Assembly: GCA_014859225.1 (NCBI GenBank)
Contig: JACUUP010000041.1
Coordinates: forward strand, 1-10,987
Length of the DNA: 10,987 nucleotides
Reading direction: 5' to 3'
Origin: Candidatus Aerophobota bacterium
GTDB lineage: Bacteria > Aerophobota > Aerophobia > Aerophobales > B3-G15
The position numbers and the translations under genes were made by a program. The notes under the pieces are model-generated. The model ran no database searches. It had not been told where the DNA came from and worked only from the letters and a program-made list of their open reading frames with translations. The stretch's first letter is position 1; each line of letters starts with the position of its first letter. Of this stretch, positions 9 to 7,838 are shown piece after piece.

Positions 9-3000
9 TTATTCCTCATTTTCTCCTTCTTTTTCCATATCTTTAATAGAGTACCTTTTTCCATTCTTCCAGAATTCAAGAGAAAGACCAAGTGATTGAA
101 ATTCCTTAACCAAAACTTTTAAGGACTCAGGAGTTTCTGTTTCAAGAGTATTCTCACCTTTTATTATTTTTTCGTGCATCTTTGTCCTGGCTAAAAGGTC
201 ATCGGATTTACTGGTAAGCATTTCTTGCAGGGTGTAAGCAGCTCCATACCCTTCCAGTGCCCACACCTCCATCTCACCAAATCGCTGTCCTCCCTGTCTG
301 GATCTTCCTCCGAGAGGTTGTTGTGTAATTAAAGCATAAGGCCCCGTGGAGCGAGAATGCAGCTTTTCCTCAGCTATATGAACAAGCTTCATCATATACA
401 TATACCCAACAGCTACAGGGCGATCAAAAGGCTCTCCTGTGCGAGCATCATATAAAATTATCTTACCATCTTCTGGCAGGTCTGCCTCCTTTAAAAGACT
501 CCTTACCTCCTCATGCTTTGGTCCTTCAAATACGGGGGTCACCATAATTGCGTCCATCTTTTTTGCCACCCATCCTAAGTGAAGCTCAAAAATCTGCCCC
601 ACATTCATTCGGGAAGGCACACCCAGAGGATTTAGAACCACTTCAACTGGCGTTCCATCAGGAAGACAAGGCATATCTTCTTCAGGCACTATTTTAGCTA
701 CAACACCTTTATTTCCATGACGCCCTGCCATCTTATCTCCAACACCTATCTTTCTTCTGACAGCCACATAGACCTTAACTCTGTCTCGCACATCAGGAGA
801 TAGGTCATCACCCCTTTCACGAGAAAAAACCTTAACTTTTATCACCTTTCCTTCAATTCCGTGAGGAACTCTAAGAGAGTTATCTTTTACCCTCTGAGCT
901 TTTTCTCCAAAAATGCTTCTTAAAAGTCTTTCCTCAGGAGTTAACTTTACTTCCACCTGAGGAGTCACTTTTCCCACCAAAATATCCCCTGCAGATACCT
1001 CTGCTCCAATTCTTGTTATCCCTTTTTCATCAAGATTCCTGAGGGCAGTCTCATCAACATTAGGAATATCAGAGGTTATCTCCTCAACTCCAGACCGAAG
1101 GTCTTTTGCCTCTACCTGGAACTCTTCTATATGTATAGAGGTAAAAAAGTCCTCTTTCACAAATTTTTCACTCACTACAATTGCATCTTCAAAATTATAA
1201 CCTTCCCAGGGCATAAAAGCTACAAGAACATTTCTACCAAGAGCAAGTTTTCCATTGCGTATTGTCGGGCCATCTGTGATAAAATCACCTTTTTTTACCT
1301 TCTCACCTTTTTTAACTATAGGCCTTTGGTCAATGCAAGTTCTTTGATTGGACCTTTTGAATCTAACAAGTGGATAGGTATCAATCCCCGCAGGATGTTT
1401 TACCATTATTTTACTGGCATCTACATAAATTACTTCTCCATCCCTTTTTGCTCTTAGGGCAATGCGGGAATCTTCAGCTACCTTACCTTCCATCCCGGTT
1501 TGAACTAAAGGCTCTTCAGGGTTTTCCAGGTGAATAGCCTGACGCTGCATATTAGAGCCCATTAAAGCACGATTGGCATCGTTATGTTCCAGAAAAGGGG
1601 TAAGAGATGCGGACACACTAACTATCTGTTTAGGGGAAATATCTATATAGTTTATCTTTTCCGTAGGAACAGCAAGTATTTCACCCCGATAGCGAGCTAT
1701 AACAAGGGGTTTAATAAACCTGCCTTTTTTATCCACTGCATTACATCCCGCAATATAGTATTTGTCTTCTTCTCTGGCAGAAAGATATTCAACTTCTTTC
1801 GTAGCTATGCCATCTTTTACTTTGCGGTAAGGTGCCTCAAGAAAACCAAACTCATTAACCCGAGCATAGATAGCCAGAGAGGTAATAAGACCGATATTTT
1901 GTCCCTCGGGAGTTTCAATAGGGCAAATTCTCCCGTAATGGGTATAATGTATATCCCTTACCTCTTCCTTAGCCTGAACCCTGGATAAACCTCCGGGACC
2001 AAGAGCAGATAATCTTCGTTTGTGAGTTAACTCCGATAGGGGATTGGTCTGGTCCAGGTACTGGCAAAGCTGTCCGGTATAAAAAAAGCTCTGTACTGCT
2101 CCTCTCAAGGCTCTCGTGTTAACCAGAGAGCGGGGAGTAATAGTTTCAGGAGGCTGGATACTCATTCTCTGCTGGACTATTCGAGAAAGATGGGCAAGCC
2201 CTATTCTAATTTGCTCTCCTAAAAGCTTACCAATTCCTCTTACCCGTCTATATGCTAAATGGTCTATACTTTCAATTTGAGTAATTTCACGGTTAATCTG
2301 AAGAAGGCGTTTCACCACACCTATTAAATCCTGTAGCCTCAAAACCATGAGATGGCATCCTGTGTCCAGACCTAACTCCTGGTCAATCTGAAAACGACCT
2401 ACCTTACCAAGATTGTAGTAGCGTGGATTTAAAAAAGTTCTCTCAAATACTTCCTTCACTGATTCAAACACAGGTGGCCTACCAGGTCTTAGCTGGTGAT
2501 ATATTTTAAGAAGAGCATCTTTAGTAGATTCAGCACTATCCTGCTCAAAAGTATTTTTTAATATCTCTCTATCGGTAGTATGCTCTATTTGCTTCAAAAC
2601 TCCCTCTGGGGATGCACCAAATGCCCTTAAGAATAAAGTGGCAGGAAATCTTCTTCCCCGGTTAATCCGCATATACAAAAAGTCATCTTTGAACTCAAGA
2701 TCAAGCCAGTTACCTCTCTCGGGAATAATCCGGGCCCGGTACAGTGCTTTTCCCTCATTTGAGATGGTTGCAGTTTCTTCAAAAAAAACTCCGGGGGTCC
2801 GTTGAATTTGACTGACCACTACCTTTTCCGTTCCATTTATAATAAAACTTCCTCTTTCATTCATTAACGGGATATCCCCCAGATAAACCTCCTGTTCAAT
2901 TACCTCACCTGTCTCTTTTTTGTTCAACCTGAGTTTAACATAAAGAGGGATGGCATAGGTCAGCTCTTTTTCCTCGGTCTCCTCGGGGCTATAACGAGGT

Positions 3001-3239
3001 TCAGCAAATCGATACCCTCCGTACTCCAGAGATATTTTTCCATTGTAACTTTCCACGGGAAATATATCCCGGAAAACAACCTCTAACCCTTTATATTCCC
3101 TCTTTTCCGGTGTAACATCCTGCTGAAGAAATTCCTGGTAAGAGGAGCGTTGCGTCTCTAAAAGATCGGGAATTTCCATTAAAGAGGAATATTTAGAAAA
3201 CTCCCTGACTTTCTTTTTTTCTTTTAATGCAACTTCCAT
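9..3239 (-). CDS. rpoB: DNA-directed RNA polymerase subunit beta
   Basis: Beta subunit of the core RNA polymerase, which with beta-prime forms the active-site cleft. The frame is complete, from ATG (Glu-Val-Ala-Leu follow) to TAA at 9-11. Visible landmarks are the rifampicin-pocket segment at about residues 390-413 (QLCQYLDQTNPLSEL, then THKRRLSAL), the THYGRICPIETPEG block just after it, GSNMQRQA, and KIGVGDKMAGRHGNKG at 830-845 carrying active-site lysines. The C-terminus has GGRSRQGGQRFGEMEVWALE, the clamp-contact region. At 1076 residues it is much shorter than the roughly 1340 of E. coli and carries no large inserts. Fork loop 2 is unusual: the normal RERAGF reads RVQAKE at 420-425. An AAGGGGTG ribosome site precedes the start, 38 nt after rplL, with no terminator in the gap. 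rpoC would be expected next but lies outside the window. Confidence 0.98.
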   Translation of the reverse strand: MEVALKEKKKVREFSKYSSLMEIPDLLETQRSSYQEFLQQDVTPEKREYKGLEVVFRDIFPVESYNGKISLEYGGYRFAEPRYSPEETEEKELTYAIPLYVKLRLNKKETGEVIEQEVYLGDIPLMNERGSFIINGTEKVVVSQIQRTPGVFFEETATISNEGKALYRARIIPERGNWLDLEFKDDFLYMRINRGRRFPATLFLRAFGASPEGVLKQIEHTTDREILKNTFEQDSAESTKDALLKIYHQLRPGRPPVFESVKEVFERTFLNPRYYNLGKVGRFQIDQELGLDTGCHLMVLRLQDLIGVVKRLLQINREITQIESIDHLAYRRVRGIGKLLGEQIRIGLAHLSRIVQQRMSIQPPETITPRSLVNTRALRGAVQSFFYTGQLCQYLDQTNPLSELTHKRRLSALGPGGLSRVQAKEEVRDIHYTHYGRICPIETPEGQNIGLITSLAIYARVNEFGFLEAPYRKVKDGIATKEVEYLSAREEDKYYIAGCNAVDKKGRFIKPLVIARYRGEILAVPTEKINYIDISPKQIVSVSASLTPFLEHNDANRALMGSNMQRQAIHLENPEEPLVQTGMEGKVAEDSRIALRAKRDGEVIYVDASKIMVKHPAGIDTYPLVRFKRSNQRTCIDQRPIVKKGEKVKKGDFITDGPTIRNGKLALGRNVLVAFMPWEGYNFEDAIVVSEKFVKEDFFTSIHIEEFQVEAKDLRSGVEEITSDIPNVDETALRNLDEKGITRIGAEVSAGDILVGKVTPQVEVKLTPEERLLRSIFGEKAQRVKDNSLRVPHGIEGKVIKVKVFSRERGDDLSPDVRDRVKVYVAVRRKIGVGDKMAGRHGNKGVVAKIVPEEDMPCLPDGTPVEVVLNPLGVPSRMNVGQIFELHLGWVAKKMDAIMVTPVFEGPKHEEVRSLLKEADLPEDGKIILYDARTGEPFDRPVAVGYMYMMKLVHIAEEKLHSRSTGPYALITQQPLGGRSRQGGQRFGEMEVWALEGYGAAYTLQEMLTSKSDDLLARTKMHEKIIKGENTLETETPESLKVLVKEFQSLGLSLEFWKNGKRYSIKDMEKEGENEE

Positions 3240-3277: not shown

Positions 3278-3703
3278 TTATTTTAACTCTACTTTGGCTC
3301 CTACCGTTTCCAGAATCTCTTTCATCTTCTGTGCTTCTTCTTTATTAATGCCCTGCTTTACAGGCTGGGGAGCAGACTCAACAAGGTCCTTTGCCTCTTT
3401 AAGTCCAAGTGAGGTAAGCTTCCTGATTTCTTTAATAACCTGGATTTTTTTATCCCCAACTTCGGAAAGAATCACATCAAATTCCACCTTCTCTTCCTCA
3501 GCTTCCTTTTCCACAGAAGGTGCGGCGCTTGCAGCTATCTGAGGGGCAGATGCTTTCACTCCAAATTTTTCCTCCAGTTCCTTAACAAGTTCAGATAACT
3601 CTAAAATATTCATCTGTTCAATTTCCCTGATAATTATCTTTTTTCTATCTTCTTTTTTTTCTTTAACCTCTTGTTTAACTTCCTGTTTAGGTACGGTTGC
3701 CAT
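3278..3703 (-). CDS. rplL: Ribosomal protein L7/L12, internal start
   Basis: L7/L12 forms the multicopy flexible stalk that recruits and activates translational GTPases such as EF-Tu and EF-G. An ATG at 3701-3703 is preceded by AAAGGAGG with a 7-nt spacer, about the best ribosome site in the window, so independent initiation is expected even though the frame is open from rplJ. The 141 residues comprise a charged, Lys/Glu-rich N-terminal extension (1-20), the dimerisation domain (about 22-50, [18 protein letters not shown]), an Ala-rich hinge (51-72) and the C-terminal GTPase-contact domain (73-141, with [13 protein letters not shown]). Bacterial L7/L12 is usually about 120-128 residues, so the extension is extra. 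Free L12 is needed in several copies per ribosome, which fits a strong separate start. No alternative start lies near the normal N-terminus. Confidence 0.9.
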
Positions 3704-4231
3704 TGATGCTCCTCCTTTTTTCTCATCAATAATGTTATTTATGACAAATACAAAATTTTGAACAGGCGATATTAAAGCTGTCATAAATGTAATTAAAGGT
3801 GCATTAAGCTGCGATAAAAACTCGGCCAGCAAAGTACCTCTATCGGGCAAGCTGGCCAGAGAAATTATCTTCTCTGCATCAATTAAATCTCGGGAAAGAA
3901 CTCCTCCTTTGATCTTCAAATTAGGATGCTCATCCATGAACCTCTTAAGTATCCTGGCTACTGCTACAGCATCCTGCTGAATAAAAACAATACCAGTAGG
4001 CCCAACAAAAAGAGGCTCAAGACCCATCAAATCAGCTCCTCCAGCTCCTCTTTTAGCTAAAGTATTTTTTACAACCTTAAATGAAGCTTTTGATTCTCTT
4101 AATTTTCTTCTAAACTCTGTAACCTCATCTACTTTTAAACCACGATAATCAACCAGGAAGCTTGCTGAACTTTCAAGGAGATTATCCTTTATCCACCCTG
4201 CTATTTGTCTTTTCTCTTCAACTTTCATCAT
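3278..4231 (-). CDS. rplJ: Ribosomal protein L10 reading in frame into L7/L12 (joined rplJ-rplL frame)
   Basis: One open frame of 317 codons holds a complete L10 (residues 1-176) followed without a stop by a complete L7/L12 (177-317). L10 is the base of the ribosomal GTPase stalk; its C-terminal helix binds L12 dimers. The L10 part shows [29 protein letters not shown] and the usual tail (LNAPLITF, then INNIIDEKK). At the point where L10 normally ends the codons continue as GGAS and then into the L12 methionine. Those GGAS codons are the rplL Shine-Dalgarno. The start is the first of two ATGs, 4 nt after rplA, with AAGGA overlapping the end of rplA. Either an L10-L12 fusion is made as well as free L12, or the run of six A at 3716-3721 hides a one-base difference. 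One extra A would end L10 at a TAA at 3687-3689, overlapping rplL by 17 nt. Confidence 0.85.
3711..3718 (-). promoter_or_regulatory. Strong Shine-Dalgarno of rplL inside the rplJ frame
   Basis: On the minus strand the sequence reads AAAGGAGG, 7 nt before the rplL ATG. It is translated as Lys-Gly-Gly if ribosomes read through from rplJ. It decides the rplL start and argues that free L12 is produced. It directly abuts a run of six A (3716-3721), a possible slippage site. Confidence 0.85.
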
Positions 4232-4235
4232 GGCC

Positions 4236-6398: not shown

Positions 6399-7601
6399 TC
6401 ACTCTATTATCTTGGTTACCACACCTGCCCCTACAGTATGACCACCTTCACGTATAGCGAATCTTAGACCCTCCTCCATGGCAATGGGAATAATTAACTT
6501 TACAGTCATGACCACGTTATCACCCGGCATTATCATCTCTACACCTTCAGGAAGAGATACGTCTCCGGTTACATCAGTGGTCCTAAAATAAAACTGTGGT
6601 CTATAACCTTCAAAGAAGGGAGTATGACGCCCTCCTTCCTCTTTAGTTAATACATAAACATTCCCTTCAAAGGTAGTATGTGGAGTTATGGAAGAAGGAG
6701 CTGCCAGCACCTGACCTCTGCTAACCTCATCTTTTTCTATTCCTCTGAGCAAAACACCGATATTATCGCCTGCCTGAGATTCATCCAATGTTTTCCTGAA
6801 CATCTCTAAACCAGTAGCTACAGTTTTCTTTATCTCTTTTGACATTCCCACTATCTCTACCTGGTCCGCCACCTTGATTTTACCTCTTTCCACTCTACCG
6901 GTAACCACAGTTCCTCTACCCGTAATGGTAAAAATATCCTCTATTGCAAGTAAAAACGGTTTGTCAACATCCCTGAGCGGCTCCGGTATATGTTCGTCTA
7001 TAGCATTTAAAATCTGCCAGATGGGACCACAATGCGGACAATCTTCTTTTCCACAACCACACTCCAGACACTTCAGTGCTGAGCCTGTAACAACCGGGAC
7101 ATCGTCACCAGGAAACTCGTACTTAGAAAGAAGCTCTCTTACCTCAAGTTCCACAAGCTCAAGCAGCTCTTTATCTTCAACCTGGTCGGCTTTGTTTAAA
7201 AACACTACAATTGCTGGAACATTAACCTGCCTTGCCAGAAGAATATGTTCCCTGGTCTGAGGCATAGCTCCATCAGCAGCAGAAACAACCAGAATAGCCC
7301 CATCCATCTGAGCAGCACCTGTAATCATATTCTTTATATAGTCAGCGTGCCCGGGGCAGTCAATGTGAGCATAATGTCTTTTATCTGTCTGGTACTCGAT
7401 GTGCGAAATACTAATTGTCAAACCCCTTTCTTTTTCCTCAGGAGCCTTATCAATTTCATCTACAGTTGTAGGCGTAGCATATCCTTTTTTGCCTAAAAGA
7501 TTTGTTATAGCTGCAGTTAAAGTACTTTTCCCATGGTCTACATGTCCTATTGTCCCAACATTAACATGCGGCTTCGTCCTCACAAATTTCTGTCTTGCCA
7601 T
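6399..7601 (-). CDS. tuf: Elongation factor Tu
   Basis: GTPase that delivers aminoacyl-tRNA to the ribosomal A site. The 400 residues have the expected three domains. The G domain shows GHVDHGKST (P-loop, Ser in place of the usual first Thr), the switch I segment [16 protein letters not shown] (G3), NKAD (G4) and SAL (G5). Domain 2 carries [13 protein letters not shown], and domain 3 carries GGRHTPFF and the C-terminal [13 protein letters not shown]. After the SAL motif there is a short Cys-rich insert with Cys178, Cys181, Cys183, Cys188 and Cys191 (spacing CxxCxC-x4-CxxC), which looks able to bind a metal and is absent from E. coli EF-Tu. The ATG follows AAGGAGG with a good spacer. It is transcribed with the upstream tRNAs, and rpmG follows 16 nt downstream. 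Confidence 0.98.
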
Positions 7602-7659
7602 ATTTTAATCCTCCTTATTTTCCTTATCTGAAATCTTATGTTAAGCTATTTTTCAAAAA

Positions 7660-7732
7660 AGCCCACGACCGGATTCGAACCGGTGACCTCATCCTTACCA
7701 AGGATGCGCTCTTCCCCCTGAGCCACGTGGGC
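7660..7732 (-). tRNA. tRNA-Thr (GGT anticodon)
   Basis: Minus-strand cloverleaf with acceptor GCCCACG/CGTGGGC (7 perfect pairs), D arm GCTC/GAGC, anticodon stem CATCC/GGATG with loop TTGGTAA giving anticodon GGT, and T arm ACCGG-TTCGAAT-CCGGT. The base at the discriminator position is T, and a run of T follows, so CCA is not encoded and must be added. It lies 58 nt upstream of tuf, as tRNA-Thr does in many bacteria. Confidence 0.96.
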
Positions 7733-7746
7733 AAAATAAAGCAAAG

Positions 7747-7829
7747 TGGGGAGGGATGGATTCGAACCATCGTAGGCAATTGCCAACGGGTTTACAGCCC
7801 GCCCCATTTGGCCACTCTGGCACCTCCCC
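7747..7829 (-). tRNA. tRNA-Tyr (GTA anticodon)
   Basis: Minus-strand class II tRNA with acceptor GGGGAGG/CCTCCCC, anticodon loop CTGTAAA giving GTA, the long variable arm expected for bacterial tRNA-Tyr (TTGGCAATTGCC region), and T arm GATGG-TTCGAAT-CCATC. The discriminator is A and CCA is not encoded. It lies 14 nt before tRNA-Thr, so the two are probably processed from one precursor. The tRNA-Gly found between them in E. coli is absent. Confidence 0.96.
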
Positions 7830-7838
7830 CATCTTAGC

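Follow-up and report, generated by a model that had tools for sequence, protein, structure and literature searches.

The window, the whole 10,987-nucleotide stretch of DNA analysed here, carries on its minus strand the gene order tuf, secE, nusG, rplK, rplA, rplJ-rplL and rpoB, in which rplJ and rplL, encoding the ribosomal stalk proteins L10 and L12, occupy one open reading frame of 317 aa (3278..4231, minus strand). The frame is flanked directly upstream by rplA (L1; 4236..4931, minus strand), from which the L10 start is separated by 4 nt (4232-4235), and directly downstream by rpoB, which lies in a separate frame (9..3239, minus strand). Elsewhere in the window, an 80-aa ORF on the plus strand (7595-7837) overlies the tRNA-Thr and tRNA-Tyr genes and is a typical spurious call. 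The claim of the first-pass annotation that rplJ and rplL form a single open frame is borne out by both domain libraries: Pfam matches Ribosomal_L10 at residues 3-98, Ribosomal_L12_N at 199-239 and Ribosomal_L12 at 251-317, and NCBIfam matches L10 at 5-171 and L12 at 197-317, with both equivalog models scoring above their cut-offs. The uL10 assignment rests on NF000955 (residues 5-171, 152 bits against a cut-off of 85), and that of bL12 on PF16320 for the N-terminal domain, PF00542 for the C-terminal domain and TIGR00855, all above cut-off. Nested within the frame is a complete rplL coding sequence (3278..3703, minus strand), from which a free L12 of 141 aa is predicted.

The standard bacterial rplJ-rplL operon (uL10, bL12) is alike in its proteins, in their order between rplA and rpoB, in having complete domains, and in providing L12 with its own Shine-Dalgarno (SD) sequence. 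It differs in keeping the two genes in separate frames with a stop after L10, whereas no stop intervenes here, so that L10 would never be made without an attached L12; in addition, no L10 leader was matched by Rfam in the window, including the rplA-rplJ gap, or in 20 related loci. Searches of open-access papers turned up no account of an L10-L12 fusion.

Both proteins appear structurally intact within the fused chain. An AlphaFold2 model built with 49 sequences (an input of eight gave no confident L12 fold) contains the L10 body, the L10 tail helix, the L12 hairpin and the C-terminal domain (251-316) as intact modules. The L10 part spans residues 1-172 (3716..4231, minus strand), as delimited by the NCBIfam match, the model, and an alignment to Thermotoga L10 (1zav) that extends up to residue 178 of 180. 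In other bacteria, it is the long C-terminal helix of L10 that carries L12; here the corresponding tail helix, which closes the L10 part, is predicted at residues 131-173 with a pLDDT of ~90. It is followed by a flexible linker (residues 174-193; 3653..3712, minus strand), with pLDDT below 50 for residues 175-190, which includes a Lys/Glu-rich N-terminal extension of L12 that also occurs in relatives with separate genes. The L12 N-terminal hairpin for dimerisation and L10 binding (residues 194-223; 3563..3652, minus strand; PF16320) is modelled as helices at 194-205 and 209-223, and the C-terminal factor-binding domain (residues 251-317; 3281..3481, minus strand; PF00542) has a pLDDT above 90. 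L12 is bound as dimers to the L10 tail, with two to four dimers per ribosome depending on tail length (PMC4592705). The near-complete alignment to Thermotoga L10, together with the helix at 131-173, suggests three. At its length, the linker could plausibly extend to a site on the same L10 helix.

Across the phylum (3653-3703 in the window; L032-L036), the Lys/Glu-rich extension measures ~23-27 aa in fused members, and some members with separate genes have a far longer version with a repeat-like Lys/Glu/Pro sequence. An AT-rich repeat-like sequence, TTAGTGGATTAGTTAATTAGAGATTAGTT, is present in G010 (L033, L140) between rplJ and rplL, and also directly after rpoB.

At the junction, the codons read GAT GAG AAA AAA GGA GGA GCA TCA ATG GCA. 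A run of six A lies at 3716-3721 (minus strand), exactly where the first-pass annotation had placed it, and the frame is broken in computed variants that lose or gain one or two bases of the run. The SD that had been described as lying inside the frame, read as Lys-Gly-Gly, is likewise present as AAAGGAGG (3711..3718, minus strand), identified from anti-SD pairing and from relatives, and is followed by the GCA codon (3707..3709, minus strand) and the internal L12 start ATG (3701..3703, minus strand). The anti-SD was taken from relatives, whose 16S 3′ tail reads GGATCACCTCCTTTC, because no 16S gene was among the matches in the window's own bin. Against this tail, the internal SD gives the strongest pairing among the 315 positions of the ORF. 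The SD ahead of L10 is weaker when judged by eye, in line with an excess of L12 over L10.

The phylum of the window was sampled with 17 genomes, all from one order, with the locus present in 16. A fused frame without a stop was found in eight of these 16, spread over six families (the window genome, G002, G004, G005, G006, G007, G008 and G013), and the other eight have separate genes. Comparison of the junction in relatives, as the first-pass annotation had proposed, thus recovers the fused frame in seven further genomes. Fused members are 47-67% identical to the window, the nearest being G002 (67%), and several lack the junction A run (ACAGGAGG, AAGGAAGGAGG and GAGGGAGG). The fusion was to be abandoned, by the first-pass annotation, had every close relative carried a stop at the end of L10; this is not the case, as G002 and others are fused. 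Where the genes are separate, the junction reads GGA GGA TAA TCT ATG in G011 and G014, and GGA GGA TAG TCT ATG in G012; at this stop position, occupied by the GCA at 3707..3709 in the window, the fused members have GCA, ATA, TTA, CTA or TCA. The final base is A throughout, as expected from an old TAA, and as each of these is a sense codon, stop reassignment and readthrough are excluded. Two genomes in which fusion had been suspected from frame length, G031 and G056, were found to have stops.

On a tree of RpoB, L1, L11, NusG and EF-Tu, from which G016 was left out, neither the fused taxa (AU p = 0.0004) nor the separate taxa (p = 0.029) are monophyletic, and at least three switches between the two states are needed, by repeated loss of the stop or by a single loss with repeated regain. 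With this many changes of state, the fusion is not indispensable. Stop loss between neighbouring genes also occurs at another gene pair: rpoB and rpoC form a single open frame in G003 (L136, minus strand, 7974-14747), in G013 (L135) and in one outgroup, G053 (L147), with junctions DMEKGEEPWKMDNIDKIKIRL in G003 and DMEGKGSIEGKPLWKMSDIDKIRI in G013 that reflect the same kind of stop loss as between L10 and L12.

A second fused clade lies in another phylum. Among 386 sampled genomes, the same open frame turned up in one that is unrelated, G310. Within its order nine of nine genomes, representing nine genera, were fused, and the remainder of its phylum yielded no fused frame. A second, overlapping sample of 385 genomes, queried with an alignment of both clades, yielded no further fusion, although both broad samples can miss fusions below the similarity thresholds, and none was found at 112 loci from other genomes. 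Sister families of this clade (hereafter clade 2, the fused members of the window's phylum being clade 1) have separate L10 and L12 genes with a spacer between them, and an L12 start that is mostly GTG (for example GTG CAG CAG ATT ATT GAA). At the position of this start, the fused members read TCN GTG CAA GCA ATA ATT GAA or near variants. At its N-terminus, clade-2 L12 is as long as usual, and the linker resembles a read-through of the former spacer. By these comparisons, the fusion arose independently in two bacterial phyla.

Signals for internal initiation are retained in both clades. In clade 1, GGAGG is found 7 nt before the ATG in eight of eight members, the start is Met in all eight and coincides with the L12 start where relatives keep the two genes apart, and in an alignment of the fused members GG-x-S-M is invariant while the rest of the linker varies. 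The clade-2 start column holds GTG in eight genomes and ATG in one, aligned with the GTG start of the separate rplL in the sister families; the SD-to-start spacing of only 4 nt is short, and two members have GGAGAA, both of which count against internal initiation. The SD glycine is the sole invariant glycine column encoded by a single codon (GGA) in either clade, one of ten such columns in clade 1 and one of 13 in clade 2. Based on codon usage, the chance of GGA at this glycine is P = 0.0018 in clade 1 and 1.2e-5 in clade 2, and that of GTG at the clade-2 start among members with Val is 1.4e-6, with related genomes counted as independent, although the proteins are so divergent that synonymous sites are expected to be close to saturated. 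Because of that assumption of independence, the comparison among glycine columns within the alignment is the safer control. The SD and start are hence conserved beyond what the amino acids need, and on this evidence the junction residues of both clades follow a nucleotide requirement.

A search with PF00542 returned one L12 copy in the window's bin (1.8 Mb, 91% complete). Every other fused genome of both clades also gave a single match, with no second rplL or other gene for the short product, all of these being incomplete bins. A second rplL could lie on a missing contig in any one of them, and is unlikely to do so in all 17 fused genomes.

The two-product design put forward in the first-pass annotation, one tethered L12 and free L12 from the internal start, gains support from the conserved frame, its recurrence in a second phylum, the nucleotide conservation of SD and start, and the lack of any other rplL match; both proteins, their ratio and the place of the tethered copy on the stalk are inferred. 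At a probability of about 0.82, one frame is read as giving an obligatory L10-L12 tether together with free L12 through internal initiation. Translation from rplJ would meet no stop after L10 and would yield an L10-L12 chain each time, so that, going by the sequence, every L10 would be born with an attached L12 because nothing terminates the frame between them. The old rplL ribosome-binding site and start, now in frame and under selection, would drive internal initiation, and as searches of the fused genomes gave only one rplL each, free L12 would have to come from this start. The tethered L12 probably occupies one place on the tail helix of its own L10 by way of a flexible linker of ~20-30 residues, with the remaining places of what is probably a three-dimer stalk filled by free L12. 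Within the window's phylum, the state of fusion would be set by one codon between SD and start, sense or stop, and persistence of the L12 start signal would explain why the fusion is tolerated. At the level of sequence, both the fusion and the conservation of the internal start are well established, and the two protein products are predicted.

The six-A run at the junction, in a metagenome bin, could raise the suspicion of a homopolymer indel or a binning artefact, but the frame recurs in seven more members of the phylum, some of which lack the run, as well as in nine genomes of another phylum, which rules out sequencing or assembly error for practical purposes. It is very improbable that the SD and ATG are fossils in the continuous open frame, with all L12 tethered at one per L10, since both signals are conserved at the nucleotide level in two independent clades and each ribosome uses several L12 copies, which act as dimers (PMC4592705). 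Cleavage of the fused chain by a protease near Gly-Gly/Ser-Met, releasing normal L10 and L12 whether or not internal initiation also occurs, would fit the conservation of GG-x-S-M (in clade 2, GG-S-V) within a segment that is flexible and exposed. Processing of ribosomal proteins has precedent, L27 being a known example. The constraint, however, is on nucleotides and not on residues, with GGA selected among the Gly codons and GTG among the Val codons; Met and Val are exchanged by way of ATG and GTG, and two members have GES. One-to-one cleavage alone could not supply the several L12 dimers per L10 used by bacteria, and we know of no candidate protease, making this an improbable explanation.

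What the tether is for is a separate matter, as a neutral fusion would share the mechanism of the two-product reading and differ from it in purpose only: both products would be made, and an idle tether would drift by single-codon loss and gain of the stop. The alternation of stop and sense at one codon, the scatter of fused and separate taxa on the tree, and the loss of the rpoB-rpoC stop in the same phylum all fit such drift. Fixation in nine of nine genera of clade 2 and in several deep families of the window's phylum argues against it, as does the failure of both broad samples to yield another case, though L10 and L12 often lie in one frame; neutrality is a reasonable possibility, somewhat short of even odds. 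It may also be proposed, tentatively and with rather more doubt than belief, that a fixed factor-binding arm, acquired independently in two phyla, has been kept for better stalk assembly or factor recruitment, as a bacterial parallel of P0. Archaeal and eukaryotic P0 is a stalk base with its own factor-binding tail, present besides free P1/P2 dimers. This tail is short, and not a whole L12 with a dimerisation domain; there is no internal start, and the fusion event was a separate one. C-terminal residues are shared by P0, P1 and P2 (PMC4379515). The fused protein matches bacterial L10 models and L12 domains and falls outside the P0 family, which is marked by an extra domain II and a P0-type tail; its resemblance to P0 is, as far as the sequences tell, functional only.

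Similar in genetic layout is Spa33/SctQ of type III secretion, the counterpart of a FliM-FliN fusion, which is accompanied by a free FliN-like Spa33-C made by alternative translation (PMC4832279). The long and short forms associate 1:2, with the short form in excess (PMC4832279). Spa33-FL and Spa33-C likewise come as a fused long form and a C-terminal short form from one frame; the proteins are unrelated to those of the stalk, and both products were shown by experiment there, whereas here they are predicted from sequence. In-frame alternative initiation also gives N-terminally truncated second products of infB, clpB and cheA (PMC11005335), in which the short form is an isoform, whereas the short product of the fused frame is an entire ribosomal protein that was once separate. 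The rpoB-rpoC frames of G003 and G013, in the window's phylum, likewise arose by stop loss between cluster neighbours. Such fusions are known from Helicobacter and Wolbachia, and need no second product because the subunits are used 1:1.

One-start-per-frame gene callers are likely to annotate fused genomes as being without rplL or rplJ. Alone among ribosomal proteins, L12 occurs in several copies, and its movement on L10 contributes to the recruitment of translation factors. A natural design in which one L12 would be covalently fixed, found twice, probes the importance of free exchange and exact copy number, and the single stop or sense codon that divides fused members from some unfused relatives constitutes a natural experiment.
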